DNA of 42,517 nt from an uncultured Pelagibacteraceae bacterium (GTDB lineage Bacteria > Pseudomonadota > Alphaproteobacteria > Pelagibacterales > Pelagibacteraceae), in assembly GCA_902552805.1 (NCBI GenBank), contig CACDIC010000003.1, positions 1 to 42,517 of the forward strand, written 5' to 3'. Both the position numbers and the translations under genes were made by a program. Each line of letters opens with the position of its first letter. Within the stretch, counting starts at the first letter, position 1. Shown here piece after piece: positions 2,326 to 15,923 of this stretch. The notes beneath the pieces are model-generated. The model was not told the origin of the DNA and searched no databases. It saw only the letters and a list, made by a program, of their open reading frames with translations.

Positions 2326-4442
2326 TTGAGAACATCTCTTTTTCCAACATGATTTGCTTTACTCACTATTCCCTCGGACTCCATCATATCAATTATTCTT
2401 GCAGCTCGATTATATCCAATTTGAAGTTTTCTTTGTAAAAATGAAGTTGAAGCTTTTCCCTCAGTTTTAATTATTTCAATAGCAGTTTGATATAATTCAT
2501 CCTGTTCACCTTGATTTTTTGATTCATTTAATTCCTTTTCATCAGCAAAATTAAGTATTTCATCAACATAATCAGGCTCAGCTTGAGATCTTAAAAAGTT
2601 ATTAATTTTTTCTATTTCTGTGTCTGAGACGAATGGAGCATGAATTCTTACAATTCTATTTGCGGACGACATATATAGCATATCACCTTTTCCTAACAAT
2701 TGCTCAGCTCCTTGTTCACCTAAAATTGTTCTACTATCTATTTTAGAGGTGACTTGAAAAGAAATTCGGGTTGGAAAATTTGCTTTAATAGTACCTGTAA
2801 TCACATCAACACTGGGTCTTTGAGTGGCCATAATAATATGAATACCAGCAGCTCTAGCCATTTGTGACAATTTTTGAATATAATTTTCAATTTCTTTTCC
2901 TGCGACTAACATTAAATCAGACATCTCATCAACTACCACCACTATGTAGGGCATGGGCAATTTATGTTTTGAATTATAACTATCAATATTTCTCACTCCC
3001 TCTTTGGTCATTAGCCTATATCTGCTCTCCATTTCTTTAACCACCCAACCAAGAACAGAGGCAGCCTTTTTAGCCTCAGTAATGACAGGGCAAAGTAGGT
3101 GTGGGATACCTTCATAAGTAGAAAGTTCTAACATCTTAGGATCAATTAGAATAAATTTACATCTTTCTGGAGTATGCTTGTAAAGAAGAGATAAAATAAT
3201 TGTATTGATACATACAGATTTTCCTGATCCTGTAGTACCAGCAATAAGCAAATGAGGCATTGCAGACAAGTCTCCAATTATTGGAGCACCAGAAATATTT
3301 TTCCCTAGAGCAATAGGTAATTTGATTTCTTTCTTTTTAAAGTTTGAATTATCTAGAATTTCACTGAGATATACATTCTCTCTGTTTAAATTTGGAAGTT
3401 CTATACCTATGGTATTACTTCCTGGAATAGTTGCTATACGTGCTGACTCTGAACTTGTATTTCTTGCAATATCATCAGATAGATTAATTATTTTAGAAAC
3501 TTTGATACCCGCTGCAGGTTCAAATTCATTTAGAGTAACTACTGGGCCGTGACTAACCTTTTTAATCTTTCCATTAACACCAAAATCTAAGAGAATTTTT
3601 TCTAAAAATTCTGGATTATTATTTTCATTTTTATTAAGATTTTCTCTTTCTTTTTTGGTTGGAGTTTTTAACAAATCAATTGAGGGCAGAGAAAATTTTG
3701 TTTTTGTAGACCTATTATTTTCAGCTTTAATAAATGGTAAATCTTCTTGTATTATGTCTTTTATTTCATCTTGAGGAATAAATTCGTTTATAAGCTCATC
3801 TTTATTTGTATAACTTTTAGGGCTTTTATTGAATAAATAATTTGATATTTTTTTTACACTCGAAATAAAATTTTTTAAATTAAAATTTATACTTAAAATG
3901 AAAAATAATAGAGTGAGTATTAGAAGTAAATAAAATGAATAATCATCATAATTATTTAATAAATTAATTAAAAAGTTTTCTGATAAGTAATTTCCAACAA
4001 AACCACCACTACCATTAATATAAAGTGTAAAATTTTCAGAGTAAAATTTTGAAAAAAACAAAGATCCAAATAATATATAAATTGTGACAAAAAAGGTGTT
4101 TTCTATGATAACTAAAATTTCTTTTTTTCTAAAAATGTTTAAACCTGTAAAGATATAAGTGACGGGTAATAAGTAACCTATTAAGCCTATAGATTGTAAA
4201 ATAAAGTCTGAAGTAACACTTCCCTGATAACCTAAAACATTTTTTATAATAGTATTTTCTGGGAAAATAAAATTTGGGTCTTCAGGAGAGTATGAAATTA
4301 AGGCTATTAAAATTAAAAACCCCAATAAAAGAACACAAATACCAAAAATTTCAATTAATCTATTTGTGATGAATGTTAGAGCTGTGTTTGATAGTTTTTT
4401 TATATCCATATCAGATGAATCAAATTTATCACTTTGTATCAT
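2322..4442 (-). CDS. ftsK: DNA translocase FtsK
   Basis: At 706 residues this is a short FtsK/SpoIIIE protein. Several hydrophobic helices lie in the first ~190 residues and anchor it in the membrane at the septum. A short K/E/N-rich linker follows. The motor domain has Walker A in LIAGTTGSGKSVCINT, Walker B in MPYIVVVVDEMSDLM, and the ATQRPSVDVITG segment. The C-terminal winged helix (EGKASTSFLQRKLQIGYNRAARIIDMMES) is the gamma domain that reads KOPS sites. It pumps DNA during division and promotes dimer resolution at dif. It is transcribed with lolA. Confidence 0.96.
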   Translation of the reverse strand: MIQSDKFDSSDMDIKKLSNTALTFITNRLIEIFGICVLLLGFLILIALISYSPEDPNFIFPENTIIKNVLGYQGSVTSDFILQSIGLIGYLLPVTYIFTGLNIFRKKEILVIIENTFFVTIYILFGSLFFSKFYSENFTLYINGSGGFVGNYLSENFLINLLNNYDDYSFYLLLILTLLFFILSINFNLKNFISSVKKISNYLFNKSPKSYTNKDELINEFIPQDEIKDIIQEDLPFIKAENNRSTKTKFSLPSIDLLKTPTKKERENLNKNENNNPEFLEKILLDFGVNGKIKKVSHGPVVTLNEFEPAAGIKVSKIINLSDDIARNTSSESARIATIPGSNTIGIELPNLNRENVYLSEILDNSNFKKKEIKLPIALGKNISGAPIIGDLSAMPHLLIAGTTGSGKSVCINTIILSLLYKHTPERCKFILIDPKMLELSTYEGIPHLLCPVITEAKKAASVLGWVVKEMESRYRLMTKEGVRNIDSYNSKHKLPMPYIVVVVDEMSDLMLVAGKEIENYIQKLSQMARAAGIHIIMATQRPSVDVITGTIKANFPTRISFQVTSKIDSRTILGEQGAEQLLGKGDMLYMSSANRIVRIHAPFVSDTEIEKINNFLRSQAEPDYVDEILNFADEKELNESKNQGEQDELYQTAIEIIKTEGKASTSFLQRKLQIGYNRAARIIDMMESEGIVSKANHVGKRDVLK

Positions 4443-4473
4443 CTAATTTTTATTGTTAAAATTAAAAATTAAT

Positions 4474-5544
4474 ATGAAACTTTGTATTCTAGGTGGTGGA
4501 TTAACTGGATTAAGTTTAGCAAAATCTTTAGTTAAAAAAGGATTATCTATTGATATTTTTTTAAATAAAAAAAAATCAGATTTTAATAGGAGTCGAACCA
4601 TTGGTATTTCTAATGATAATCTGATGTACTTTAATAAAGAAATATTAGATATTAAAAAATTATTTTGGGATATAAAAAAAATTGAAATTTATTCAGAAAA
4701 TCTAAGAAATGAAAAAATTTTAAATTTTGAAAATAATAATAAAACTGTTTTTGCAATAATTAGAAATTATCAATTACAAAGTAAATTACTCAAAAGTTTA
4801 AAAAAAGATAAGTTATGTAAATTTAAACAAAATTTTGATTACAATTTTTCAAATTTGAAAAAATATAAGTTAATAATCAATTGTGAAAATGATAACTATT
4901 TTACAAAGAAGTTTTTTGCAAGAAGTTTGAAAAAAAAATATGATAGTCTTGCGTATACTACAATTTTAAAACACAAAAAAATTCAGAATAATACAGCATC
5001 TCAAATATTTACGAAAAATGGACCATTGGCATTTTTACCATTATCAGAAATAGAAACTTCTATTGTTTATTCAATTAAAGGTAAAAAAAATATTAATCTC
5101 AAAGAATTAATTAAAAAATATAATACCAAATATTCAATTACAAATTTTGGTATTTGCAACTTTTTTGAGTTGAAAGCTTCGAATTTGAGAACTTATTATC
5201 ATAAAAATATTCTGGCTTTTGGTGATGTATTACATCGCCTTCATCCTTTGGCTGGCCAGGGTTTCAATATGACTTTAAGAGATATTCGAGATTTGGCTAA
5301 TTTAATTGAACTTAAGTTAAAGAATGGATTAGAGATAGATAATTCAATTTGTGATGAATTTCAAAATATGACTAAACATAAAAACTATCTTTTCTCTAGT
5401 GGCATTGATTTTGTATACGAATTTTTTAATTTTGAAAGCAAGATGAATAATAATATCCTTAGCAAATCTGTGAGATTTATAGGAAGAAATAAATTCCTAA
5501 ATAGATCTTTTAAAAATATAGCGAATAGAGGTTTTGAAATTTAG
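4474..5544 (+). CDS. UbiH/UbiF/COQ6-type FAD-dependent ring hydroxylase
   Basis: This protein (356 residues from the ATG at 4474) has an N-terminal FAD-binding GxGxxG-type fold, KLCILGGGLTGLSLAKSLVKKG, and the second FAD motif AFGDVLHRLHPLAGQGFNMTLRDI near residues 248-271. Both are typical of the UbiH family, which hydroxylates the aromatic ring in ubiquinone synthesis. An in-frame TTG at 4453 would add seven residues, but ATG at 4474 starts exactly at the Rossmann strand and is preferred. The central part is diverged and very Lys/Asn-rich, so which ring position it attacks cannot be told. Confidence 0.82.
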   Translation: MKLCILGGGLTGLSLAKSLVKKGLSIDIFLNKKKSDFNRSRTIGISNDNLMYFNKEILDIKKLFWDIKKIEIYSENLRNEKILNFENNNKTVFAIIRNYQLQSKLLKSLKKDKLCKFKQNFDYNFSNLKKYKLIINCENDNYFTKKFFARSLKKKYDSLAYTTILKHKKIQNNTASQIFTKNGPLAFLPLSEIETSIVYSIKGKKNINLKELIKKYNTKYSITNFGICNFFELKASNLRTYYHKNILAFGDVLHRLHPLAGQGFNMTLRDIRDLANLIELKLKNGLEIDNSICDEFQNMTKHKNYLFSSGIDFVYEFFNFESKMNNNILSKSVRFIGRNKFLNRSFKNIANRGFEI

Positions 5545-5546
5545 TT

Positions 5547-6191
5547 TTATTGAACAGTTGTATTATTATAATTGTCAAAAGAATATGTAGTTAAAATTTC
5601 AGAAATTTTAGTTTTTCTAAGCTCTAAATTTTTGGCCTCTAATAAGATTTGTTTTTCTTCTAGCGTAAAAGGAGATGCCATCGCTAGAGCGTTTATTGTT
5701 TCATCTAAGCTTTGTTTCTCTAATCCTTTCCAATTAATAATAAATCCTCTTTTTTCAAAAAGATTTTTTAAGTCTTTAAATATCAATTTTAAATCAGAAA
5801 ATTGTAGATTTTCACTTTGATAACTTAGATCATCATAAAAATTATTAAAATCTACATTGCATTCTCTGTATTTTTTATCTGATTTTACTTCATCTGTTTT
5901 TTTAAATCTGATTATACCCTTAAGTTCTATCAAAAATTGACCATTATCATTTTCTCTAAAGCTTGTAATTTTGCCCATACACCCAATATCATATAATTCA
6001 GGGTTAACTTCACTTTCTTTTGATTTTTTAGGTTGTATCATCCCAATAAACTTGTTTGACTTCATACTATCATTAATCATATCGACATATCTTGGCTCAA
6101 ATATATTTAATGGAACAGTAGTTCTTGGAAAAATGATAAAGTTACTTAATGGAAAAACTGGTATTGTTTTTGGTAAATCTTCTTTTTTCAT
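5547..6191 (-). CDS. LON-domain protein (Lon N-terminal-like, no protease)
   Basis: The 214-residue protein matches the N-terminal substrate-binding domain of Lon protease alone: IPVFPLSNFIIFPRTTVPLNIFEPRY, then GCMGKITSF and a beta-rich region. No AAA ATPase or Ser-Lys protease domain follows. Such stand-alone proteins are common in alphaproteobacteria. Their exact role is not established and substrate recognition is the usual guess. It is convergent with the UbiH-type gene (two bases apart) and starts just upstream of the tRNA-Gly promoter on the opposite strand. Confidence 0.88.
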   Translation of the reverse strand: MKKEDLPKTIPVFPLSNFIIFPRTTVPLNIFEPRYVDMINDSMKSNKFIGMIQPKKSKESEVNPELYDIGCMGKITSFRENDNGQFLIELKGIIRFKKTDEVKSDKKYRECNVDFNNFYDDLSYQSENLQFSDLKLIFKDLKNLFEKRGFIINWKGLEKQSLDETINALAMASPFTLEEKQILLEAKNLELRKTKISEILTTYSFDNYNNTTVQ

Positions 6192-6258: not shown

Positions 6259-6299
6259 GCGGGCGTAGCTCAGTGGTAGAGCGTCTCGTTGCCAACGAG
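6259..6299 (+). repeat. Left attachment site (41-bp direct repeat, copy 1)
   Basis: These 41 bases are identical to 12325-12365 and correspond to the tRNA acceptor strand, D arm, anticodon loop and most of the 3' anticodon stem. The identity stops one base before the end of the anticodon stem and does not extend upstream of the tRNA 5' end. This places the crossover within the 5' half of the tRNA, most likely around the anticodon loop. Confidence 0.92.
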
Positions 6300-6322
6300 G
6301 TAGTCTTTGGTTTATGCCCCGC
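6259..6322 (+). pseudogene. Broken tRNA-Gly: intact 5' half joined to a degenerate 3' half
   Basis: The first 41 bases match the functional tRNA-Gly(GCC) exactly. The next 21 bases align without gaps to the intact gene (12366-12386) with 11 matches, keeping GTC, GGTT and CCCC blocks. They cannot form a T stem, and only five of seven acceptor pairs are possible. The element side therefore seems to carry a decayed tRNA 3' half. A functional tRNA is not expected from here. Confidence 0.75.
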
Positions 6323-6356
6323 AGTTTCTCTAACTTTTTTTAATCACACTTTAATC

Positions 6357-6388
6357 TGGTCGCAGTATGGGACGCAGTTGGTCGCAAA
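6357..6388 (+). repeat. Left integrase arm-type sites, three tandem copies
   Basis: Three near-identical units lie in tandem between the left attachment site and the integrase start: TGGTCGCAGT (6357-6366), TGGGACGCAGT (6368-6378) and TGGTCGCAAA (6379-6388). The spacing is about one helical turn. A 16-bp stretch (6363-6378) is repeated exactly at 12199-12214 near the other end. Tandem TGG(T/G)(A/C)CGCA-like repeats beside the integrase gene are typical of arm-type binding sites; the binding itself is inference. Confidence 0.7.
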
Positions 6389-6406
6389 AAACAGAAAGGA
6401 TAACCA

Positions 6407-7360
6407 ATGGCGTACCTAAGAAAACACAGAGACAAATGGCAATCAATTGTTCGGATACATGGACACCCACATTTAGCAAAAAGTTTTAAGTCTAAAACTG
6501 ATGCAACACGTTGGGCAACAGAAACAGAGCTGAAGATTAGACGTGAAGATGCAGGAATTGCAAAGATACATTTTGCAAAGTTCGAAGATCTTGCACGAAA
6601 ATATATCGAAGAAATCTCAGTATTAAAAAAATGTTACAGAGATGAAAGATATACAATCTTAGGCTTGTTGAAAGAGGCTTGGTCAAGTTACCCAATAAAT
6701 AAAATTAAGCCTGCAACAATCAATAAGTACAAAGACACATTAGCAAAGCGTGTTAGTGGTGGCACAATCAATCGAAGATTAGATGTCATTAGCAGCATGT
6801 TCACAACATTCAAAAAAGAATGGGGCTTTCCAGTGGACAATCCAGTCTTAGCAATAAGACGACCAAAAAGAGCTGCACCCCGAGATCGTAGATTTAGCGA
6901 AGCTGAGCTTAATTTATTAATCAGAGGAAATCACACAACACCAGAGCTTAGATCTATTATTAATATTGCATTATTAACTGGCATGAGATTGTCAGAAATT
7001 TTGCGAATAGATGTAAGAAATATTGAGGGCAATACTCTTTCAATACCAGTTGCCAAAACTAAGCCGAGAGTAATACCTTTAACAAAAGATGCAGCTGCTG
7101 AAATTAAAAATGCAGATCTACCATTTAGATTAAGTAAATATGTATTGGATAAAAAGTTCAGAAGACTATGCAAAAAATATAAAATCAAAGATGCACACTT
7201 TCATGATTTACGACATCAGGCATTAACTAATTTTATGAAAGATAAAGGATTGAATGTTCCAGAGACAATGATGATTGCAGGACATTCAGATCCTAGAATG
7301 TTGTTGCGAGTTTATAATAATTTAGAAGCGCAGCATGTTGCAGATAAATTAAATAAATAA
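6407..7360 (+). CDS. int: Tyrosine recombinase (integrase)
   Basis: The 317-residue protein has the layout of a phage-type integrase. Residues 1-50 form a small basic arm-binding domain, ~55-155 a SAM-like core-binding domain, and ~165-317 the catalytic domain. Catalytic residues are visible: R194 in TGMRLSEI, a lysine in VAKTKPRVIPL, H266 and R269 in HDLRH, H293 in AGHSD, and nucleophile Y303 in LRVYNN. The ribosome site AAAGGA lies eight bases before the ATG. It adjoins the left attachment site and reads inward, so the former tRNA promoter may transcribe it in the integrated state. It should catalyse integration and excision at tRNA-Gly. Confidence 0.96.
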   Translation: MAYLRKHRDKWQSIVRIHGHPHLAKSFKSKTDATRWATETELKIRREDAGIAKIHFAKFEDLARKYIEEISVLKKCYRDERYTILGLLKEAWSSYPINKIKPATINKYKDTLAKRVSGGTINRRLDVISSMFTTFKKEWGFPVDNPVLAIRRPKRAAPRDRRFSEAELNLLIRGNHTTPELRSIINIALLTGMRLSEILRIDVRNIEGNTLSIPVAKTKPRVIPLTKDAAAEIKNADLPFRLSKYVLDKKFRRLCKKYKIKDAHFHDLRHQALTNFMKDKGLNVPETMMIAGHSDPRMLLRVYNNLEAQHVADKLNK

Positions 7361-7374
7361 AAAATAAAAAAAGT

Positions 7375-7412
7375 TAAGGGACATTCTGTATATTATCCTA
7401 GAGTGTCCCTTA
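7375..7412. terminator. Hairpin after integrase, probable terminator
   Basis: Bases 7375-7387 and 7400-7412 form a 13-bp stem with one wobble pair (core AAGGGACA/TGTCCCTT) and a 12-base loop. It lies 15 bases after the integrase stop. On the plus strand only a short GAAATTTT follows. On the minus strand a long T-rich tract follows directly, so the better-formed terminator reads leftward, although no minus-strand gene is recognised just to the right. It may work in both directions. Confidence 0.6.
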
Positions 7413-7516
7413 GAAATTTTCAAAAAGTTCGCATAAATAGACTCTTAAAAAGACTCTTGAAATTGCCACAATTGATCTTTAAATAAGGTTTATCGTTGAT
7501 AGTCCGATATAAAATA

Positions 7517-7590
7517 AATTCCTGTCATACCGAAGAAAAAATAATCAAGAGACATTGCTAGAACGCACAAACTGCAAATAGACAGGAATT
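7517..7590 (+). promoter_or_regulatory. 10-bp inverted repeat spanning the leader and ribosome site of the first small gene
   Basis: AATTCCTGTC at 7517-7526 is the exact reverse complement of GACAGGAATT at 7581-7590, 54 bases apart. The right arm contains the AGGA ribosome site for the ATG at 7593. If transcribed together the two arms could pair and block translation, or the two copies could be a protein operator. A related AATTCCTGTT occurs at 7697-7706. The element leader 7361-7592 also has a tandem pair of AGACTCTT (12-base period, around 7440-7458). Confidence 0.4.
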
Positions 7591-7592
7591 AT

Positions 7593-7799
7593 ATGAAAAA
7601 AATATTAAAGATTAATGAATGTATATACAGAGATATTTGGATTGATCGTTGCAACGATTATAATATTTCCAATACTCACACCGACTTTCATCTTGTAATT
7701 CCTGTTGATGAAATTAACGAGAGCTGCAGCTTTGCAGGGCTGCACTCTCACAATTCAATAGGAAATAAATATGAAAAAAGAAAACAATGTTGTTGTTAA
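7593..7799 (+). CDS. Hypothetical small protein or leader peptide
   Basis: This possible 68-residue protein has an ATG preceded by ACAGGAATT, a good ribosome site. I do not recognise it. It has six cysteines, three of them consecutive at the C-terminus (KRKQCCC), and several histidines, but no clear metal motif. Its last 29 bases overlap the next gene in another frame, and a strong hairpin lies inside it. It could be a real gene, or a leader whose translation affects the downstream operon. Confidence is moderate to low. Confidence 0.45.
   Translation: MKKILKINECIYRDIWIDRCNDYNISNTHTDFHLVIPVDEINESCSFAGLHSHNSIGNKYEKRKQCCC
7719..7749 (+). other. Strong RNA hairpin upstream of the unknown-gene series
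   Basis: GAGAG then TGCAGC pair with GCTGCA then CTCTC to give an 11-bp stem with one bulged C and an 8-base loop. This is much more GC-rich than its surroundings and ends 21 bases before the ATG at 7771. No T-tract follows, so it is not a standard terminator. A role as attenuator, protection or translational control element is inference. Confidence 0.5.
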
Positions 7800-8208
7800 A
7801 TTAGAACAACACAATTCAAACAGATCAATATCTCTTGAAGCTTATGAGAAACTTGCAAAAAATTTTATGCAAATTTTGGAACAAGTTACATCTAACCTTG
7901 CATTCCTAGAGGTAAATTACTGGGAAGCATTCACTAAATATCCATTTAGGCAAAAATATAATAAATGGGAAAAAATACCAAAGCTCAAAGATTATGAAAT
8001 CCATGAGAAAAAAATTAAGGCAGATAAAACACTTAATGATCTCATGAAATTAATGCTGAAAGAAGAAGACAGATTATCTGAGCAGCTGCTTGAAAAATAT
8101 GGAGTTGAAGTTTTAAGTGAAAGACAGAGACACATAAAAGCAGATGCAGAATTTGAGGCAGCTGAAGCAGCAAAAGAAAAAGCTGAGAAAGAGGGGCAGC
8201 ATGACTAA
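7771..8208 (+). CDS. Hypothetical protein, charged and helical
   Basis: I do not recognise this 145-residue protein. The ATG follows ATAGGAAATAAAT, an acceptable ribosome site. Residues ~20-45 look like an amphipathic helix, ~50-70 hold an aromatic-rich stretch (NYWEAFTKYPFRQKYNKWEKIP), and the C-terminus (AEFEAAEAAKEKAEKEGQHD) is a highly charged helix or coiled coil. There is no signal peptide or membrane segment. It is the first of a series in which each gene overlaps the next by a few bases up to the primase-helicase, so the products are probably made together. Confidence 0.75.
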   Translation: MKKENNVVVKLEQHNSNRSISLEAYEKLAKNFMQILEQVTSNLAFLEVNYWEAFTKYPFRQKYNKWEKIPKLKDYEIHEKKIKADKTLNDLMKLMLKEEDRLSEQLLEKYGVEVLSERQRHIKADAEFEAAEAAKEKAEKEGQHD

Positions 8209-8644
8209 GAAGAAACAATTAGAGTTTAACTTTAATAAAACTTTTGCAGAGGCTTCAAATAAATATGATGACACAAATTATATTTACAACCCTGCTGACA
8301 ATGGGATCTATACTGAGAAAGAACTTAAAAAAAAGTTCTCAGCAACAGATACTTATAATCTTTTAAAGTCAGTTGCTAATCAGCAAGAAAAGAAAGAATT
8401 TCGTGATATTGAACGAAAGTACAAAAAAAAGAAGCCCATAGCTCAACGCACAGAGCCATTCAGCAACAAAGATGATACTGGGGCTGCAGTAAAAATCGAC
8501 ATCGCACCATTCCCATTTGAGAATACTATTACTCACACTTATGGTGCAATTGAAGATGCAAAAGTTGAAGAAGCAAAACCAGTTGTAAAACCAAAAAAAC
8601 AGTTAGCGGGTCTTGCTTATATTTTGGGGGTGGATGATGCCTAA
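8201..8644 (+). CDS. Hypothetical protein, unrecognised, basic N-terminal half
   Basis: The preferred ATG at 8201 follows GAGGGG by a few bases and overlaps the preceding stop by eight bases, giving 147 residues; a longer in-frame start at 8144 would run deep into the previous gene and is less likely. The protein begins MTKKKQLEFNFNKTFAEASN. It has a Lys/Arg/Glu-rich middle (QEKKEFRDIERKYKKKKP) and a Val/Pro/Lys-rich C-terminal part. No known domain, membrane segment or catalytic motif is visible. The basic middle would allow nucleic-acid binding, but this is speculation. Confidence 0.72.
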   Translation: MTKKKQLEFNFNKTFAEASNKYDDTNYIYNPADNGIYTEKELKKKFSATDTYNLLKSVANQQEKKEFRDIERKYKKKKPIAQRTEPFSNKDDTGAAVKIDIAPFPFENTITHTYGAIEDAKVEEAKPVVKPKKQLAGLAYILGVDDA

Positions 8645-8915
8645 GATCCCGAAAGAACATTTAACTAAAAGATATCCAGAAAGTAAAACTATCAGAAATG
8701 CGCTGCTTAAACGAAATAAGTTAGACAGAAAAATTGCAGTATGTGAGCATGACAATATTGATTATAAATCAATGTTATATCTTGCAAAAAAATCTGTAAG
8801 GGTCATTGAAAATCTTGCAGCTGCAGTTGCATCTCTGGAAAAGCAAAATAAAGAACAGAAAGAAGAAATTACCACACTGAAAAAAAGATTGGGGGTAATG
8901 AAAAATGTCCACTAG
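8637..8915 (+). CDS. Hypothetical protein with C-terminal coiled coil
   Basis: Two ATG codons in a row (8634 and 8637) follow the run GGGGGTGG; the second gives 92 residues starting MPKIPKEHLTKRYPES. Residues ~50-85 (VIENLAAAVASLEKQNKEQKEEITTLKKRL) have a clear heptad pattern, so a coiled coil and oligomerisation are likely. The N-terminal part is basic. The start overlaps the previous stop by eight bases and the end overlaps the next gene by 11 bases. I do not recognise a family. Confidence 0.72.
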   Translation: MPKIPKEHLTKRYPESKTIRNALLKRNKLDRKIAVCEHDNIDYKSMLYLAKKSVRVIENLAAAVASLEKQNKEQKEEITTLKKRLGVMKNVH

Positions 8916-9342
8916 AACAATTAAAGATCCTACATTTAACATCTATAAAAAAGGTGGAAATGTAGAGAATAAAAATCGACCAATAGGCAAAGAGCAGCTC
9001 ATGCAATTAGCAAAAGATGAAGCTGATATATTGTTTGATTTAGAGAATGACATAATCCAACAAATGAAACTCGACTACATGAAAGAAGGTGGTAAGGGTC
9101 AATCATTTACAGATTGGTTAAAGTCCAAACCCAAAAGCTATTTCAAAAATATACCTTTGCAAATGGCGGGGGGTGGTAAAGTTGTAATGCTATCTGACTA
9201 TTTGAAACAAAAAGAAAAACCAAAGATTAAAAAATTAAATCTTGATAGTGTTGCAATTGGTAAAAGTCTTTCAGAGCTTACAGAAGCTGAAAGAGCTGCA
9301 GTAAATAAGCTGCTTAGACTTACATTCGGAAAGGGGGATTAA
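8905..9342 (+). CDS. Hypothetical protein with glycine-rich loop, possibly phage-related
   Basis: This 145-residue protein starts at an ATG nine bases after GGGGG. It has an acidic helical part (KDEADILFDLENDIIQQMKLDYM), then GGKGQSFTDWLKSKPKSYF, a glycine-rich turn in QMAGGGKVVMLSDYLKQ, and a C-terminal helix ELTEAERAAVNKLLRLTFGK. Short GGGK-type loops followed by a helix are frequent in small proteins of marine phages, in my recollection, but no function is assigned. The stop TAA shares a base with the ATG of the primase-helicase, so translation of the two is probably coupled. Confidence 0.72.
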   Translation: MSTRTIKDPTFNIYKKGGNVENKNRPIGKEQLMQLAKDEADILFDLENDIIQQMKLDYMKEGGKGQSFTDWLKSKPKSYFKNIPLQMAGGGKVVMLSDYLKQKEKPKIKKLNLDSVAIGKSLSELTEAERAAVNKLLRLTFGKGD

Positions 9343-11462
9343 TGACGTCAGATGCCCCTATAAATGGCAGTAATGCTGCATTATTGAATAAGGAAGCAAT
9401 TGCAGCGTTACTCCGAGAGAATGCAACAATCTTCGAATATGATTATGGAACAAAGCGAGTTGAAATTTCATGGGATCAGCGAAGAAAAAAAACAGTCAAG
9501 TCAGTTGAAGATATAAAACCATTTGCCAATTATCACATAATAACTGGTGAGGGAAATTTTTTAGATTTAGATCTGGATTGCAAAGAGACCAGAGATCTTG
9601 CACCACACTTTATGCCGCCGACTGAGTTTAAATTTGGTAGGGAAAGTACCCCTGCATCTCATTGGCTTTATAAAGTTTTAGATCTGAATAAAAAACATAC
9701 TCGCAAATATTTTATATTTGAAGATAAAGATGTTACTAAAAAAACATTAGTTGAGCTTAGAGCATACGATCACTATTCAATGTGTTCGGGTAAATACCCA
9801 GAAAATGAACATGTAAAATATAATGAATGTTCAGCAGTTGGGGAAACCACATTCGACACTTTATATAAAGCAACAGCAATGTTAGCAGCTGCAGCTGTAG
9901 TTCTAAGAAATTTTCCTGCAGCAGATAGGAATGTTTATGTTTGGTATGTAGCAGCAACATTATGGCATCACAAAGTCGAAGAAGATGATGCGATGCATTT
10001 AATAAAAGTTGTTTGTGACGCTATGCGAGATGACACAAAAGAGCGATTAGCAAAAGTAAAACATGTCTATAAAAATGAAGATCCAAATAAAGAAGTAGTT
10101 GGATTACCGACATTAGTAAAATATTTGAAATGGAACGATAAGCAAAGAGATAATTTCAAAGATATACTATTTGCAATAACTGGTAGATCAGAGCTGCCAA
10201 AATTTACTCATGAATTTGTTGATCGAATTGCATACATGATGAAACAAAAAAAATACTATGATCTGGAAGATAAGGAAATGTATGACGCAGAAGCTATTGA
10301 TGTGAAATACGCAAAATATTTTAGAGATGCAAAATACACTCCATTATTATTTTGGAAAAAGCACCCAGATAGCAAAGTGTGTGTTGACTTTACTTATAAG
10401 CCAAATGATCCAAAAAGATTTGTCATGGTAGATAAAAAGCTCATGATAAATGTTTATGAAAAAAATGATCTGTTACCTAATCCAAAAGCTGACACAGATA
10501 TATTCTGGGATCTAGTAAAACATGTAATACCGCATGATGAATGTAGAGAACATTTTTTAAATTGGTATGCATTCCCTTTACAAAATCCAGGTGTAAAAAT
10601 TAGACATGCATTGATTATGCAATCTGATGAATTTCAGTTGGGTAAAGGATCATTGTTTGATCTTCACAGAGATATTCTTGGACACAAAAATACTCGTAAG
10701 ATTGAATTAGCTGAAGCTCTTGATAAGGGTAAAAATTATTTATTAAATTATCAATCTGTTTTAGTTGATGAAGCAAAAAGCTCTGGCAGTTGGAGTGAAA
10801 AAGCGCAGCTGATAAATACTCTAAAAACAATTATCACTGAGGGTAGCATCGGAGTAAGGCAGTTGTATAAAGAATACACTGAGCAAGATACTTGCACTAA
10901 CTATTGGATTAACACCAATTACAAAGATGCATTTCCGCTGCCAAAAAATGAGGTTAGGTACTGGGTGTATTTTAGTCCTGCAAAAAGAAATCAGCAGCTG
11001 CTTGATGAGTTTCATAATCAAAGATTGTCTGGGGATCTTGCTGCAGGTGTCATGGCAGAATTACTGGATCGAGATCTAAGTAAATTTAATCCATTAGCAC
11101 CCGCACCAGAAACCAGTTTCAGATTTGAAATGTCAAACATGGCGGATCGACCTTTGAATGATTATGTTAAGGAACAATTTGATCAAGGTGCATTCCCATT
11201 TGATAGGGACATGGTCACAACATTAGAGTTGTTTGATTGGTTAAAAAAAGAAGCTCGAATGAAAGTAACCAGAGAAAGAGAGGTTGCAGCTGCGCTTGAT
11301 GCCATTGGTGGTAAATGTGTGAAGCAAGTTCCAATTGCAAATGTTGGTAGTAGAGCAACACTCTGGATTATTAGAGACCACAAAATACATTTAGCAAAGA
11401 CTGCTGCAGAACTTGGTAAAAAATATGTTGGCTTCTATACTGATAAGAGAGCAAAAAAATAA
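9342..11462 (+). CDS. Primase-helicase, prim-pol plus D5-like SF3 helicase
   Basis: This 706-residue protein is the likely replication initiator of the element. Residues ~60-145 look like an archaeo-eukaryotic prim-pol domain: the acidic DLDLD (75-79), a Ser/His pair in TPASHWLYK (~103-111) and VELRAYDHY (~137). Residues ~400-545 look like a D5/DUF5906-type SF3 helicase: a Walker A-like QLGKGS (432-437), Walker B SVLVDEA (472-478), and motif C with N525 in YWINTNYKDAFPLP. The Walker A is atypical, lacking the usual leading glycine. A winged-helix-like C-terminus follows (~625-670). AAGGGGG before the ATG is a strong ribosome site. A repeat-rich region directly downstream may be its origin. 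Confidence 0.82.
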   Translation: MTSDAPINGSNAALLNKEAIAALLRENATIFEYDYGTKRVEISWDQRRKKTVKSVEDIKPFANYHIITGEGNFLDLDLDCKETRDLAPHFMPPTEFKFGRESTPASHWLYKVLDLNKKHTRKYFIFEDKDVTKKTLVELRAYDHYSMCSGKYPENEHVKYNECSAVGETTFDTLYKATAMLAAAAVVLRNFPAADRNVYVWYVAATLWHHKVEEDDAMHLIKVVCDAMRDDTKERLAKVKHVYKNEDPNKEVVGLPTLVKYLKWNDKQRDNFKDILFAITGRSELPKFTHEFVDRIAYMMKQKKYYDLEDKEMYDAEAIDVKYAKYFRDAKYTPLLFWKKHPDSKVCVDFTYKPNDPKRFVMVDKKLMINVYEKNDLLPNPKADTDIFWDLVKHVIPHDECREHFLNWYAFPLQNPGVKIRHALIMQSDEFQLGKGSLFDLHRDILGHKNTRKIELAEALDKGKNYLLNYQSVLVDEAKSSGSWSEKAQLINTLKTIITEGSIGVRQLYKEYTEQDTCTNYWINTNYKDAFPLPKNEVRYWVYFSPAKRNQQLLDEFHNQRLSGDLAAGVMAELLDRDLSKFNPLAPAPETSFRFEMSNMADRPLNDYVKEQFDQGAFPFDRDMVTTLELFDWLKKEARMKVTREREVAAALDAIGGKCVKQVPIANVGSRATLWIIRDHKIHLAKTAAELGKKYVGFYTDKRAKK

Positions 11463-11874
11463 TTCTTACATGGCTACATGGCTAATTTTCAAAGTTGCCA
11501 AAAAATTATTCCTGTTGCAGTTTTCAAAATTTTTTTGATGACTATGGATTTTAAGGTAGTTGCAATGTAAGAAAGATATGGGGGTGGTATCTGTGAATTT
11601 TTGTTCGGGATAACTAATTCAGAAAGATTTAATAAGTTATTAACTTGCCATTCCCACCAGTTACCCAGAATTTGAAAAAGTTTTGGGAGTTCCCCTCAGT
11701 TACCCTTAATAGGGATTTGTAACGTCCCAGTAACGTCAAAAATTACTCTGACTTACGTTGAAATAACTAGCTTTTATGCATAAACACTCAATTTTTTTAA
11801 AGTAATAATTTGAGGGAATTCAAGGTTACTACTGCATGCAAATTACCTCGAATGTCCGAGATCCATGATGCTTG
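11463..11874. other. Non-coding repeat-rich region, candidate origin of the element
   Basis: No convincing gene lies here. The stretch holds a tandem ACATGGCT pair just after the primase-helicase stop, and a 9-bp inverted repeat TTCTTACAT (11463-11471) with ATGTAAGAA (11565-11573). There are three GTTGC words between 11494 and 11564, and a GATA-TGGGGGTGG-TATC block (11575-11591). The repeated words described separately at 11658-11759 follow. Position beside a replication protein and density of short repeats suggest an origin or partition site; this is inference. Confidence 0.4.
11658..11759. repeat. Iteron-like repeats CAGTTACCC and GTAACGTC
   Basis: CAGTTACCC occurs at 11658-11666 and 11697-11705. 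GTAACGTC occurs at 11719-11726 and 11730-11737, an 11-base period, equal to one helical turn. A related inverted word CTTACGTT lies at 11752-11759. The same-face spacing of the GTAACGTC pair suggests binding of a dimer or of adjacent protein copies. Confidence 0.5.
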
Positions 11875-12015
11875 TTACTTGCTTCTTTTGCCTGCTTTAA
11901 ATCCTGCCATGTATTGAGCTGCCATTGCCTTAGGACGTTTCATTCCACGCTTCTTATATTCAGCAGTCATTGATGACAGAGTAGGTTTTGAAGATTTTTT
12001 CTTTCTAGCTTTCAT
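11875..12015 (-). CDS. Small very basic protein (46 residues)
   Basis: A complete reading frame on the minus strand runs from ATG at 12015 to TAA at 11875. It begins MKARKKKSSKPTLSSMTAEY and ends AAQYMAGFKAGKRSK, with Lys/Arg making up about a third of the residues. It could be a DNA-binding protein, an excisionase-like factor near the right attachment site, or a packaged phage-like peptide; I cannot tell which. It is the only minus-strand gene of the element. No clear ribosome site precedes it, but amino-acid usage (Lys, Arg, Ala, Met) is protein-like and the frame fills an otherwise empty stretch. Confidence 0.55.
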   Translation of the reverse strand: MKARKKKSSKPTLSSMTAEYKKRGMKRPKAMAAQYMAGFKAGKRSK

Positions 12016-12192
12016 TGCTGCATGGTACCAAAATGTTTTAAGTAAGTCTAAGGATATAGATCTTGCTATATAGCTGAACTATTAGGATCCCTATTGCAAA
12101 AAAGGGGGGTGGGGTGTCTTTAACTTTTTGATTTTTGGATCTGTTTTAGGATCCATGAGCGAAGCTGCAACAGCAGCTGAGCGCTGTAATTC
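12016..12192. other. Non-coding right end of the element with G-run and paired TTAGGATCC
   Basis: This stretch has no credible gene. TTAGGATCC, containing a perfect 6-bp palindrome, occurs at 12082-12090 and 12146-12154. Between them is GGGGGGTGGGG (12104-12114), a rare G-run in such AT-rich DNA. It lies between the small basic gene and the right arm sites. A role in termination, packaging or replication cannot be judged from sequence. Confidence 0.35.
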
Positions 12193-12223
12193 TGGACTCA
12201 GTATGGGACGCAGTGGTCTCACA
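12193..12223 (+). repeat. Right integrase arm-type sites, three tandem copies
   Basis: TGGACTCAGTA (12193-12203), TGGGACGCAG (12204-12213) and TGGTCTCACA (12214-12223) mirror the left-end series in the same order and orientation. The middle unit lies in a 16-bp exact match to the left end (12199-12214 versus 6363-6378), while the outer units have diverged. Matching arm sites at both ends support the element boundaries. Confidence 0.65.
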
Positions 12224-12229
12224 AGAATC

Positions 12230-12258
12230 TTGATTTGTTCTACTTATAATGAGATAAT
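12230..12258 (+). promoter_or_regulatory. Candidate element-borne promoter for the rebuilt tRNA-Gly
   Basis: TTGATT (12230-12235) and GATAAT (12253-12258) are 17 bases apart; a consensus TATAAT also lies at 12245-12250 without a good -35 partner. Transcription would start about 60 bases before the tRNA. Because the original tRNA promoter is at the other end of the element, some promoter is needed here. In the excised circle this same promoter would point at the integrase. Confidence 0.4.
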
Positions 12259-12324
12259 CATTTTAAGATTAATTGCGTTTAAAAGGTCGAGATTATTTGA
12301 ACGATTAATTAGTTAAAAGGATAA

Positions 12325-12365
12325 GCGGGCGTAGCTCAGTGGTAGAGCGTCTCGTTGCCAACGAG
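12325..12365 (+). repeat. Right attachment site (41-bp direct repeat, copy 2)
   Basis: Identical to 6259-6299 over all 41 bases, with no shared sequence on either side. Here the repeat is the 5' half of the intact tRNA-Gly gene, so the element restores the tRNA 5' portion on integration. Confidence 0.92.
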
Positions 12366-12399
12366 AAGGTCGAGGGTTCGATCCCCTTTGCCCGCTCCA
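12325..12399 (+). tRNA. tRNA-Gly (GCC)
   Basis: The 75-base gene folds as a full cloverleaf. The acceptor stem GCGGGCG pairs with TGCCCGC with one G-T wobble, and the D stem is GCTC/GAGC. The anticodon stem TCTCG/CGAGA carries loop TTGCCAA with anticodon GCC. The T stem GAGGG/CCCTT carries TTCGATC, followed by discriminator T and an encoded CCA. It reads GGC and GGU codons. Its 5' 41 bases come from the element side of the junction and its 3' part from the host. The matching copy at 6259 is broken, so this is the only functional tRNA of this type in the window. Confidence 0.96.
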
Positions 12400-12448
12400 T
12401 TTTTAAGTAATATAATAAAAAATTTAACTAGATGAGGATGTAAATTAA

Positions 12449-12784
12449 ATGAGCGAACTATTCGATAAAAAATGCGTTCCTTGTGAAGGTGGTGTACCTG
12501 CACTTGATATAAGTGAAATACATAAATATCAAAAAAAAATTAATGGATGGGACGTTATTAAAAATGAGAAAAATATACATTTTTTAGAAAAAAAATTTAC
12601 ATTTAAAAACTTTGTTGAGAGTCAAAAATTTGTAAATGAAGTAGGTAGAATATCAGAAGAGGAAGGCCATCACCCTGAAATTTTATTTGGATGGGGTTAT
12701 GCGAAAATAAACATCTCAACCCATGCAATTGAGGGATTATCAGAAAACGATTTCATCTTAGCTTCAAAGATTGACAAGATTTAA
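12449..12784 (+). CDS. Pterin-4a-carbinolamine dehydratase
   Basis: The 111-residue protein matches the PCD/PhhB family: an N-terminal CVPCEGGVPALD segment, then INGWDVI, FKNFVESQKFVNEVGRISEEEGHHPEILFGWGYAKI and STHAIEGLSENDFILASKID. The conserved EEEGHHPE carries the paired histidines of the active site. It dehydrates 4a-hydroxytetrahydrobiopterin to recycle the cofactor of aromatic amino acid hydroxylases. It is convergent with purH and their ends overlap by four bases. Before the insertion it would have lain directly after the tRNA promoter region. Confidence 0.93.
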   Translation: MSELFDKKCVPCEGGVPALDISEIHKYQKKINGWDVIKNEKNIHFLEKKFTFKNFVESQKFVNEVGRISEEEGHHPEILFGWGYAKINISTHAIEGLSENDFILASKIDKI

Positions 12785-14337
12785 TGTCTAAAATGTCTTG
12801 TTTTTGAAAAAATTAAAATAGTATTAGTTTTATCTGCAAACTTTATAATTTCTTTATCTCTGATTGATCCCCTAGGTTGGATTACAGCAGAAACACCGGA
12901 TTGAATTAATTTTTCAATACCATCAACAAATGGAAAAAAAGCATCAGATGCGGCAACAATTTCTTTTTTATTTTTTTTGAACTTTCTCATTTTATTTATC
13001 GCAATTTGACAGCTATCAAGCCTACTAGGTTGTCCAGATCCGATACCAACTGTTGTTTTATCACCAACGAGTACAATAGCATTGGATTTAACATGACGTG
13101 AAATATTGAATGCAAATAATAAATTTTCAAATTGTATTTTGTTTGGTTTTTTCTTTGAAACAACTTTGAAATCTTTTTTTTTAAAAACAAGATTATCTTG
13201 AGATTGAATTAACATTGAGCTTGATACAGAGTTAATTTGAAGAACATCATCAAAATTAAAGTTTGTTGAATCTATAATTCTAACATTTTTTTTAGATTTT
13301 AATAATTTAAGAGCGCTTGTTTCAAAACCATTAGCAATAATTACTTCTAAAAAAGTTTTGTTTAACTCAATAGCTAAGCTTTTATTAATCTTAAAATTAC
13401 AAGAGACAATACCTCCAAATGCGCTCACAGGATCACATTCAAATGCAGATTTATAACTGCTTACTCTATCCTTTAGAATAGAAACTCCACAAGGGTTAGC
13501 ATGTTTGATAATTACAGTGCCTATATTTTTTGGAAGACTTTTGGATATCGTTAAAGCAGCAAAAATATCATTATAATTGTTATAGCTTAATTGTTTTCCG
13601 TGAATTTTTCTTAATTTGAAATCTTTATTTTTAGAGTAAATAGCAGATATTTGGTGTGGATTTTCTCCATATCTTAATCTCTCAATTAAGTTTCCGTAAA
13701 TAATTTTTTTCTCTGTAAAATTTTCACTTGTGACTGAATTGAAGTAATCTGAAATTACGGAGTCATAATATGCTGTTTCATTAAAGGCTGATTGAGATAA
13801 TTTTTTTCTAAATTCTAATTTTGTTGCACCCTTAAATCTTTTTAACTGATCAATCAATGCTGAATACTGATTGATGGATGTTATTACTGCAACGTCATTG
13901 TAATTTTTTGCAGCACTCCTAACTAATGCAGGACCACCAATATCAATTTTTTCAATTATTTTATTGTGATTTTTTGTTGTGTTTAAAGTTTTTTCAAATG
14001 GATAAAAGTTGACTATAACTAAATCAATATTTTGAAAATTATTTTTTTTTATTTCTCTTTTGTGAGAATTATTATTTCTTTTATTCAAGATTCCCGCATG
14101 AATTTTTGGATGAAGTGTTTTAACACGTCCATCTAAAATTTCATTAAAACCAGTATAATCAGAAACTTCAAGGCATCGATAGCCTAATTTTCTAATTGCC
14201 TTAAATGTACCTCCTGAACTAATCAGTTTAACATTATACCTGTTTAAAGTTTGTAATAATGGTTTTAAGTTTGATTTATCTGAAACAGAAATTACAGCTG
14301 ATTTTATTCTTCTTACTATATTTTTTTTATTTGCCAT
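12781..14337 (-). CDS. purH: Bifunctional AICAR transformylase/IMP cyclohydrolase PurH
   Basis: The protein has 518 residues, the normal family size. The N-terminal IMP cyclohydrolase part (1-~200) shows SVSDKSN, ISSGGTFKAIRKLG, RVKTLHPKIHAGIL and the NFYPFEKT loop. The transformylase part shows LRYGENPHQ, IIKHANPCGVS with the catalytic Lys-His pair, and FFPFVDGIEKLIQSGVSA. It performs the last two steps of IMP synthesis. The start overlaps the heparinase gene by 22 bases, and purH downstream of heparinase is a common alphaproteobacterial order. Confidence 0.97.
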   Translation of the reverse strand: MANKKNIVRRIKSAVISVSDKSNLKPLLQTLNRYNVKLISSGGTFKAIRKLGYRCLEVSDYTGFNEILDGRVKTLHPKIHAGILNKRNNNSHKREIKKNNFQNIDLVIVNFYPFEKTLNTTKNHNKIIEKIDIGGPALVRSAAKNYNDVAVITSINQYSALIDQLKRFKGATKLEFRKKLSQSAFNETAYYDSVISDYFNSVTSENFTEKKIIYGNLIERLRYGENPHQISAIYSKNKDFKLRKIHGKQLSYNNYNDIFAALTISKSLPKNIGTVIIKHANPCGVSILKDRVSSYKSAFECDPVSAFGGIVSCNFKINKSLAIELNKTFLEVIIANGFETSALKLLKSKKNVRIIDSTNFNFDDVLQINSVSSSMLIQSQDNLVFKKKDFKVVSKKKPNKIQFENLLFAFNISRHVKSNAIVLVGDKTTVGIGSGQPSRLDSCQIAINKMRKFKKNKKEIVAASDAFFPFVDGIEKLIQSGVSAVIQPRGSIRDKEIIKFADKTNTILIFSKTRHFRH

Positions 14338-15923
14338 TTAATATCTTCAGTCTGGTTATTTGAAATTCCAGAAATAAATATATTTTGATTATCAATATAT
14401 GAATTTTTATTACCGAAATATAAACCATTATCAATATTTATATCATAATTATCACAAGTAAATTTCCAACCCTCATCCTCCAATTCAATTAATATTGATT
14501 TACCATCCTGAGTTTTCATTAATTTTACGTCTGGTTCTACATGAAATCGAATATCAAATTTATAATTTTTATTAATCTTTTTTAGAATTTTATCACAACC
14601 AACAAAAGTTTCTTCTCCAGGATAAAATTCTATATTTCTTTCGTGAATAGTATTATATTTTTTTTGGTATCCATCATGAGAAGCATTAATTTTCCAATAG
14701 TTTTTTTCAAAAATAGTTTCTCTTTTTGTGATTTTTAAACCCCTGGTAACAAAAAAAGATTTATCACTGTTTGTAAATTTGCAGGAGGAATTATCATCGA
14801 TTATCAAGGTATTCTGAGCGGCAGTTGATCTTGATAAATGATTTAGTTTTATATTTGTTTCACTATGATAGCCGCAATTGCTAATTAATTTTTTTCCATT
14901 AGAAATTATTTCAAAAGATAAAGCTCCAGATTGATAATTTTTAGAAAAAAATGAATTTGGTGAAGGACCGGCATCCATAGTCAGACACATCCTTTTATTT
15001 CTCAAAATTATATATCCACCATAGTCTTGATTGTCATTTTTAAATTTATAGCCTAGTCTTTGAAGATAATTATCAAAATTATTATTATCTGAAATGTTAT
15101 TACCGTTGTAAAGAATATCACTTTTTAGATTTTGCCAAACAAAAGCGTAACCTTGTCCAAGGTAGTAAATTGTTTCATTGATATGTTCTGGAATATTAAT
15201 TTGAGATTCTTTAAACCACTCTCTGATTAAAATATAATATTTCAAATAAAATATTAATTGTTTAATATTCCTTGATTTAGGAAAACCAGAATTATCAAGA
15301 GTAATTTTAGATATATTTTTTAGTAAATTTAAACCATATGGCAAATACTTTTTTTCATCCTTATAACAAAGGCCAACTAATATAATAGATGCACAACCTA
15401 TCAATTTATCTTCAACAAATTTTGATTTATTAATTTCATTTATGAGGTGATTTGCTTGTTTTTGTACCATAGTGTTGAAATCAATTTTATATTGTCCGTT
15501 ACCATCTTCATAAGTTAGATTATGACTAGATAGCCAAGCAATAATTCTTTTTGCAGTTAAATCGAAATTCCAACTTTTTGCATTGTATTTATGATTTAAA
15601 GTCATCCAGTTTTTTATAACTGATTGGGTATTTTTTTTTGAAGACTTAAGATCTAAACTAAAAAGCCAATAAAAATTATTAAGTTTTCTTAAGTTTTTTT
15701 TGGTTATTTTTTTATTATCCCAAATTTCATTTAATGCAAAATCTTCAATCCTAAATTTTTTTTTTTGATATTTAATTAAGGATGAAAGTAAATGAGGACT
15801 AGGCTTATAAATCAAATTTTGATAATAAGTTTTTGAAATTTTTTTATCGTACAGACTAGAATTTAAATATAATTCTCTTATTTTATCGAAAGTATTAAAA
15901 AAAAACCGATTTATGTAAACCAT
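14316..15923 (-). CDS. Heparinase II/III family protein
   Basis: This 535-residue protein has the two-part layout of the heparinase II/III family: an alpha-helical N-terminal toroid (~60-280, with WNFDLTAKRIIAWL and the KSKFVEDKLIGCASIILVGLC stretch) and a C-terminal beta-sandwich starting near residue 300 (DYGGYIILRNKRMCLTMDAGP, SGALSFEIISNGKKLISNCG). No signal peptide is clear. Relatives cleave uronic-acid polysaccharides, but the substrate of this genome-context group next to purH is not known to me, and sugar degradation is not certain. It lies between rpe and purH. Confidence 0.88.
   Translation of the reverse strand: MVYINRFFFNTFDKIRELYLNSSLYDKKISKTYYQNLIYKPSPHLLSSLIKYQKKKFRIEDFALNEIWDNKKITKKNLRKLNNFYWLFSLDLKSSKKNTQSVIKNWMTLNHKYNAKSWNFDLTAKRIIAWLSSHNLTYEDGNGQYKIDFNTMVQKQANHLINEINKSKFVEDKLIGCASIILVGLCYKDEKKYLPYGLNLLKNISKITLDNSGFPKSRNIKQLIFYLKYYILIREWFKESQINIPEHINETIYYLGQGYAFVWQNLKSDILYNGNNISDNNNFDNYLQRLGYKFKNDNQDYGGYIILRNKRMCLTMDAGPSPNSFFSKNYQSGALSFEIISNGKKLISNCGYHSETNIKLNHLSRSTAAQNTLIIDDNSSCKFTNSDKSFFVTRGLKITKRETIFEKNYWKINASHDGYQKKYNTIHERNIEFYPGEETFVGCDKILKKINKNYKFDIRFHVEPDVKLMKTQDGKSILIELEDEGWKFTCDNYDINIDNGLYFGNKNSYIDNQNIFISGISNNQTEDIKWQIKKI

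Follow-up and report, generated by a model that had tools for sequence, protein, structure and literature searches.

A compact element integrated in a SAR11 tRNA-Gly gene, probably a phage satellite with a candidate packaging site shared with HTVC027P-type pelagiphages

The window analysed here, a stretch of 42,517 nucleotides (contig CACDIC010000003.1 of assembly GCA_902552805.1) from an uncultured Pelagibacteraceae bacterium of the SAR11 group, carried an element integrated in a tRNA-Gly(GCC) gene and measuring 6,066 bp between the start points of its left and right attachment sites (attL and attR). The host genome assembly comprised 1.07 Mb in 22 contigs and was 87% complete. An earlier note on this DNA had described a compact integrative element of about 6.07 kb at this position, possibly a new phage satellite or integrative plasmid, and its account of the anatomy held throughout. 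The perfect 41-bp direct repeat it reported was exact (6259-6299 and 12325-12365) and equalled tRNA-Gly positions 1-41, matching arm-like sites lay inside both ends, and the tyrosine recombinase and the primase-helicase were both complete open reading frames (ORFs). The main ORFs, namely the integrase, five small ORFs and the primase-helicase, were all on the plus strand, and the small genes were in overlapping order: overlaps measured 1-11 nt between neighbours from s1 through the primase and 29 nt between s0 and s1, if the ATG codons at 8201 and 8637 are taken as starts, as we did, in place of the earlier possible ones at 8144 and 8613. ARAGORN identified an intact tRNA at the right copy only. 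The features are listed below; loci of relatives are labelled L and genomes G, and L049 is the closest relative.

6259-6299, plus strand: attL, left copy of the exact 41-bp repeat, corresponding to the 5' half of tRNA-Gly; host flank precedes it, as it does the tRNA in the empty site L118
6355-6378, plus strand: left integrase arm-like repeat, 92% identical to 12191-12214 across 24 nt
6407-7360, plus strand: tyrosine recombinase (integrase), 317 aa; Pfam Phage_integrase 6.2e-18, PHROG_1 1.2e-48
7361-7592, plus strand: leader ahead of the small-gene operon, with a stretch of 101 nt that is 81% conserved in L049
7593-7799, plus strand: s0, 68 aa; ORF at the same place in L049, 40% identical
7771-8208, plus strand: s1, 145 aa, fast evolving; similar-sized ORF at the same place in L049, no sequence match found
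8201-8644, plus strand: s2 (C8 family), 147 aa; 75% identical in L049, with a C-terminal tail resembling that of phage proteins encoded after terL
8637-8915, plus strand: s3, 92 aa, probable coiled coil; 60% identical in L049, a 35% homologue in L012, weak bZIP and DivIC matches
8905-9342, plus strand: S4, 145 aa, the family's hallmark protein; 14-member alignment, hhalign to phage after-terL proteins E 7.3e-5
9342-11462, plus strand: primase and SF3-type helicase, 706 aa; Pfam DUF5906 2.8e-8, PHROG DNA primase 7.5e-26
11463-11860, no strand: candidate replication origin in conserved noncoding DNA; 72% identical across 424 nt to the DNA that follows the primase gene in L049
11572-11658, no strand: conserved block A, 89% over 91 nt with L042
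11875-12015, minus strand: 46-aa basic ORF, perhaps not a gene; not conserved in L049
12034-12160, no strand: block B, probable packaging (pac or cos) site; match to the unselected phage profile at 12034-12117 (E 0.0011), 16-mer at 12077-12092, GGATCC boxes at 12085 and 12149
12191-12214, plus strand: right integrase arm-like repeat, paired with 6355-6378
12325-12365, plus strand: attR, right copy of the exact 41-bp repeat
12325-12399, plus strand: intact tRNA-Gly(GCC) whose upstream DNA is now element-derived (ARAGORN, cmscan and comparison with the empty site)

The empty tRNA-Gly site that the earlier note proposed to look for was found in the sister genome G390 (locus L118), where 312 bp of left flank at 98% identity ran directly into an intact, 100% identical tRNA-Gly, and the position was thus not occupied in all relatives. 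At 28 of the 29 loci of relatives at the same place there was a single copy of the 5' part of the tRNA (at most six mismatches) and no second one, the 29th ending at a contig end; this count covers about 1.5 kb on either side and shows that no repeat lies close by, the base-by-base comparison of the junction being that with G390. At the same tRNA-Gly locus in genome G391 (L119, 391-1281) a different, single-ORF insertion of about 0.9 kb lay between the flanking gene and the tRNA, with no second tRNA half. The tRNA remnant at the left end of the element (6259-6323) scored 30.9 bits in cmscan against a cut-off of 29 for the Rfam tRNA family and could be mis-annotated as a tRNA. The G+C content of the element (34.3%) was nearer to that of Pelagibacter phage HTVC027P (34.9% in its first 50 kb) than to that of the host flanks (27.0 and 29.8%).

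Nine ORFs were scanned against Pfam and PHROG, and none had a significant match to a structural, packaging or conjugation family, in line with the earlier reading; the weak library matches were a minor head protein for S4 (0.058) and a spanin for s3 (0.022). That reading had also found nothing recognisable in the small genes, which stood as far as the family libraries searched were concerned, but s0, s2, s3 and S4 do have relatives. The possibility that the small genes are ordinary host genes was ruled out for S4, the small protein tested, since its profile matched 13 of the order's 397 genomes (7 of the 151 good-quality ones; 2 of 13 genera) and, among 289 genomes of the class, the window's own genome only. 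Against solved structures S4 had no convincing relative (best E 0.068), and AlphaFold models were too poor, with a mean pLDDT of 57.3 for S4 and 34.4 for the primase. The primase family profile matched PDB entries 6k9c and 6k9e, both named 'Primase' (6.4e-21), which we take to be the enzyme of phage NrS-1.

Related elements were found elsewhere in SAR11. The primase search matched 10 of 297 genomes of the family, the window's own included, and the integrase search 12 of 297 at E<=1e-20. Compact elements, with about 4.2-8.8 kb between their repeats, occupied tRNA-Asn, Leu, Thr, Pro, Met, Val, Ser and Glu genes as well as the tmRNA gene; these loci were gathered through the primase, the integrase or S4, and not all of them carry S4. 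The attachment repeat corresponded to the 5' part of the tRNA or tmRNA gene in some and to the 3' part in others. In L049 (AH-324-A02) the gene order s0-s1-s2-s3-S4-primase was kept, with identities of 75% for s2, 60% for s3, 77% for S4 and 81% for the primase. Identity between the two primase genes at four-fold sites was 56% as against 81% for the amino acids, and the primase has therefore been under purifying selection. The integrase of L049 was only 28.7% identical to that of the window and the element was located in the tmRNA gene, despite the closeness of the other genes, so that the integrase behaves as an exchangeable module. Elements bearing S4 used three kinds of replicase, the primase-SF3 type, an AAA_25 type (L034, L042) and a family-A DNA polymerase (L050, L161, L165); as judged by sequence comparison, integrases and replicases are interchangeable across the family. 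In the last three loci the Pfam DNA_pol_A ORF at the place of the replicase spanned 12423-14276, 9795-11645 and 4073-5944, respectively.

Some relatives encoded a small terminase (TerS). It was present in L034, L039 and L041, with PF03592 above its cut-off in two of the three and just below it in the third, and in L050, L051 and L056 too; PHROG_51 was found in all six relatives tested. The TerS of L041, the only one searched against phage records, gave five matches, the best being HTVC027P at 42.9%. Terminal repeats in four IMG/VR contigs suggested circles (L044, 7,849 bp; L045, 7,700 bp; L174, 8,922 bp; L180, 8,885 bp), and that of L045 included the tRNA-Leu 5' sequence that serves as the att repeat of L013. 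These four contigs are apparently complete circular satellites that have been filed in IMG/VR as viral genomes. Scanning viral contigs with primase alignment A2 yielded five loci; scans with the window primase alone, with s2 alone or with the narrow S4 alignment A5 confirmed no relative. Three loci showed further rearrangement. In L041 a tRNA-Met 3' repeat occurred three times (4692, 10365 and 11754), suggesting a tandem pair of elements or an element and a remnant; in L049 a third, partial tmRNA repeat bounded a 2.4-kb segment of two ORFs beside the element (13487-15900), perhaps an older insertion; and at tRNA-Val in genome G017 (L036, 8221-8634) a truncated integrase, many small ORFs and a block B-like site had the look of a decaying family member.

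Block B emerged when the noncoding ends of elements with different replicases were compared, and it had an 18-nt word in common with phage contigs L060 and L067, both of which had been fetched for their TerS. An exact scan of IMG/VR with a 16-mer of the site returned 22 contigs, comprising 17 HTVC027P-like phages that together held 12 distinct site sequences, three satellites and two unrelated contigs. Sixteen of the phage contigs showed terL, and the site lay 13-104 bp upstream of it in 15 of these and 617 bp upstream in L166; in 16/16 a second GGWWCC box stood 61-64 bp beyond the first. A box pair at 63-65 bp was present in 9 of the 18 element loci inspected, including the window (12085 and 12149), and no other GGWWCC pairs spaced 61-65 bp apart than 12085/12149 and 12024/12085 occurred anywhere in the window, the chance of any such pair being 0.015 under random placement. 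A first profile built from the 12 phage sites matched the window and 14 other element loci of 35 at E<0.01, with 20 shuffled sets reaching at most 11.5 bits, and it recovered a site upstream of terL in phages outside it (023Pt_psg01, 2.5e-6; L074, 1.3e-5; HTVC027P, 2.1e-5; HTVC023P, 5.1e-4). An unselected profile was made from the 300 bp upstream of terL in five phages with a TerL at least 70% identical to that of HTVC027P (HTVC027P, 023Pt_psg01, L060, L074 and L076), picked by TerS or TerL homology alone. At E<0.01 this profile matched 12 of the 35 element loci (L044, 3e-12; L013, 1.1e-11; L164, 3e-10; L016, 3.3e-10; L050, 3.8e-10), and 8 of 35 when L060 was left out, the best at 4.8e-8. The site was situated past the last main gene, near the att site distal to the integrase, in the window, L013, L016, L036 and L049, a position that would fit a packaging start. 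Block B is probably a packaging site, pac or cos, that the elements share with HTVC027P-type phages.

Two of the small proteins also resembled proteins of these phages. In HTVC027P terL is followed by gp41, gp42 and then the portal gene gp43 (PHROG_1216). When compared by hhalign with seven proteins encoded after terL, at the gp41 position, in other phage contigs, S4 aligned at E 7.3e-5 (probability 62.5%, score 34.4) and the tail of s2 at E 7.9e-5 (probability 61.4%, score 36.2), whereas 200 column shuffles reached maximum scores of 16.3 for S4 and 20.4 for the s2 tail, and four other control pairs scored 10.7-15.2. A tail pattern, written after the tails had been seen, picked out one of 74 ORFs in the first 50 kb of HTVC027P, which was gp41, one ORF each in five of six other phage contigs, always the gene after terL, and, in 11 of the 27 element loci, a single ORF, being the C8 gene or an ORF at its position; it occurred in none of 113 control ORFs and none of 32 host ORFs of the window. 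S4 and the s2 tail therefore likely share descent with the phage after-terL proteins.

Several results weigh against a link between the window element and HTVC027P-type phages. The first profile scored the window at E 2.8e-7, a value that is inflated because the 16-mer used to pick its phages is present without mismatch in the window and in some elements, and with the 16-mer removed neither remaining half of the profile matched the window. With the unselected profile the match at 12034-12117 had an E of 0.0011 and 16.0 bits, weak for the window itself, and without L060 it fell to 0.0062 and 13.2 bits, as against 8.5 and 9.9 bits for the best of 20 shuffled sets in the two cases. The second box of the window reads GGATCC and that of the 16-mer-selected phages GGTACC. 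Among 30 TerL-matching phage contigs or records outside the first profile, 26 had no site at E<0.001; the TerL of 25 of these was 29-64% identical to that of HTVC027P, but that of L076 was 75% identical. No small terminase gene was seen in the window element by the Pfam and PHROG scan, the DNA of the whole element had no match among 50,697 phage records, and no TerL of the HTVC027P type was shown in the window's genome. A search with the S4 profile singly and with filters off matched five of nine after-terL phage proteins, HTVC027P gp41 not being among them, and default hmmsearch with the same profile over 1,356 ORFs, mostly of phage contigs, reported only the two satellites present. Taken together, the family shows a strong link between block B and the phages, and the window by itself a modest one, with the match at the expected place; at the sequence level the element may carry a means of using a helper's packaging.

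With its site-specific integration, an intact gene set under selection at the primase, a site held in common with phages and small phage-like proteins, the window element is in our judgement likely an integrated SAR11 phage satellite that would excise, replicate itself and be packaged and transferred by lytic pelagiphages of the HTVC027P type. A more specific proposal, towards which we lean only slightly, is that the family is specialised on these phages, having a version of the packaging site that the helper carries near terL, S4 and C8/s2 proteins that arose when a helper protein encoded between terL and the portal gene was split, and integrase, replicase and small terminase as interchangeable parts. 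The 5' half of tRNA-Gly is where the integrase recombines, as the anatomy and the empty site show. Upon infection by a lytic HTVC027P-type phage the element would excise as a circle of about 6.07 kb, a form in which relatives exist, and its own primase-helicase would replicate it, perhaps from the conserved noncoding region downstream of the primase gene. The phage terminase might then recognise block B as a relative of its own terL-adjacent site and package the element, probably as a concatemer, about nine 6.07-kb copies filling a head of about 58 kb, which by size matches the 57.6-kb genome of the phage. S4 and s2 probably act on helper packaging or head assembly, or enter the virion. Some relatives add a small terminase of their own, and the window element would rely on that of the helper.

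Block B could instead be a regulatory or promoter element that the phage has upstream of terL and that the satellite shares in order to sense its helper, with packaging relying on something else. Its place directly upstream of terL would suit this, as would the start of the minus-strand ORF 11875-12015 in the window, about 60 bp from the site in the terL direction. That ORF, however, is not conserved in L049, the site sits beyond the last main gene and close to the integrase-distal att in five loci, and the two-box spacing of 61-65 bp was kept in all 16 phage contigs and half of the 18 element loci, whose content otherwise differs; we regard this account of block B as rather unlikely.

Readings without a helper phage fared worse. 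Integrase and primase-helicase together also occur in plasmids, and two plasmid records matched the primase-helicase at 20-21%, yet no relaxase or conjugation family turned up in the nine ORFs scanned, the site and the protein features are common to pelagiphages, and relatives carry a small terminase, which makes an integrative plasmid or mobilizable element, spreading by conjugation or uptake with its own replication and unrelated to phages, improbable. Of the two possibilities named in the earlier note the evidence thus favours the satellite, through the shared phage site, the likeness of S4 and the s2 tail and the TerS of relatives. The phage-like integrase and primase, and a G+C content closer to phage than to host, could also belong to a decayed prophage remnant, but the genes are intact, selection on the primase is purifying, elements of the same compact plan are present at other sites and some relatives are circular, so a remnant seems very improbable. 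A tyrosine recombinase at a tRNA gene would also be expected of a stable, tycheposon-like host island with genes useful to the host; the absence of metabolic cargo among the ORFs scanned, the absence of the element from G390 and the rarity of S4 in the order leave this hardly credible.

In the noncoding region downstream of the primase gene the word GTTAC, one of five tested, occurred six times between 11463 and 12324 against 1.0 expected, and was enriched in the window and L049 and not in L012; two other words of the five were not enriched in the window. Reading the region as a set of iterons is weakly supported. In L042, whose replicase is of another type, the block A match spans 2850-2939 and directly follows S4. 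Two conserved noncoding words from block A or its vicinity were sought by exact scans with no result, and a 19-nt part of block A had no exact copy in viral contigs. A sigma-70-like match at 12230-12258 was rejected, being no better than matches in shuffled sequences.

The shared site and the link to a helper go beyond what the earlier note had observed, and a literature search gave, by title or abstract opening among the matches listed, no paper on SAR11 satellites. SAR11 is an abundant ocean bacterium, and a 6-kb parasite with an apparent copy of a lytic virus's packaging address suggests travel in the particles of that virus. If this is true, a satellite of such a phage would be a third player that could change estimates of infection, gene transfer and mortality. 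The element also shows that genome streamlining does not preclude carriage of a parasite that probably replicates itself. The helper hypothesis can be tested directly, given a defined shared site and a phage and host already in culture (HTVC027P on HTCC1062).

Among known systems, PICIs combine an integrase, a primase, a divergent regulatory pair and a small terminase or capsid-interference module. The SAR11 element resembles them in its integrase and primase, and some of its relatives have a small terminase; it differs in that its main ORFs all lie on one strand, with no divergent regulator pair and no small terminase found. VEIMEs are marine integrative satellites that Eppley et al. 2022 reportedly recovered from virions, and they are said perhaps to include SAR11 members. 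They are defined by DNA inside marine virions, and they could include the SAR11 element. The site precedes terL in both HTVC027P and HTVC023P, the tail of HTVC027P gp41 resembles that of s2, and the TerS of HTVC027P was the best phage match to that of L041; as phages of 57.6 and 60.9 kb, respectively, the two represent the proposed helper type and are not related to the element as a whole. HTVC027P has been described as an obligately lytic phage with a wide distribution (PMC12753301). Tycheposons likewise pair a tyrosine recombinase with a tRNA site in streamlined marine bacteria, but are described as cargo-carrying and 4-200 kb long, whereas no cargo was seen in the SAR11 element (PMC10872708). 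A PICMI 6.1 kb long has a virulent helper and is packaged as an 8-copy concatemer; its authors were unable to locate a cos or pac site in the helper genome (PMC10803314). Both PICMI and the SAR11 element are marine, about 6.1 kb long and made up of an integrase, a primase and a few genes of unknown function, with no capsid-remodelling or terS genes seen, and the virulent helper and concatemer packaging described for PICMI are what we infer for the SAR11 element. PICMI adjoins fis in Vibrionaceae and has a core of integrase, AlpA and primase (PMC10803314), whereas the SAR11 element lies in tRNA-Gly, has integrase and primase, and bears a site that also occurs in the terL region of one group of phages. 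No AlpA or HTH_17 match was found in its small ORFs at E<=1 with Pfam, a search that a diverged regulator could escape. By the features tested the element thus would work like PICMI but falls outside it, and the sequence evidence marks it as a phage satellite, PICMI-like in its presumed working and with a candidate helper group.

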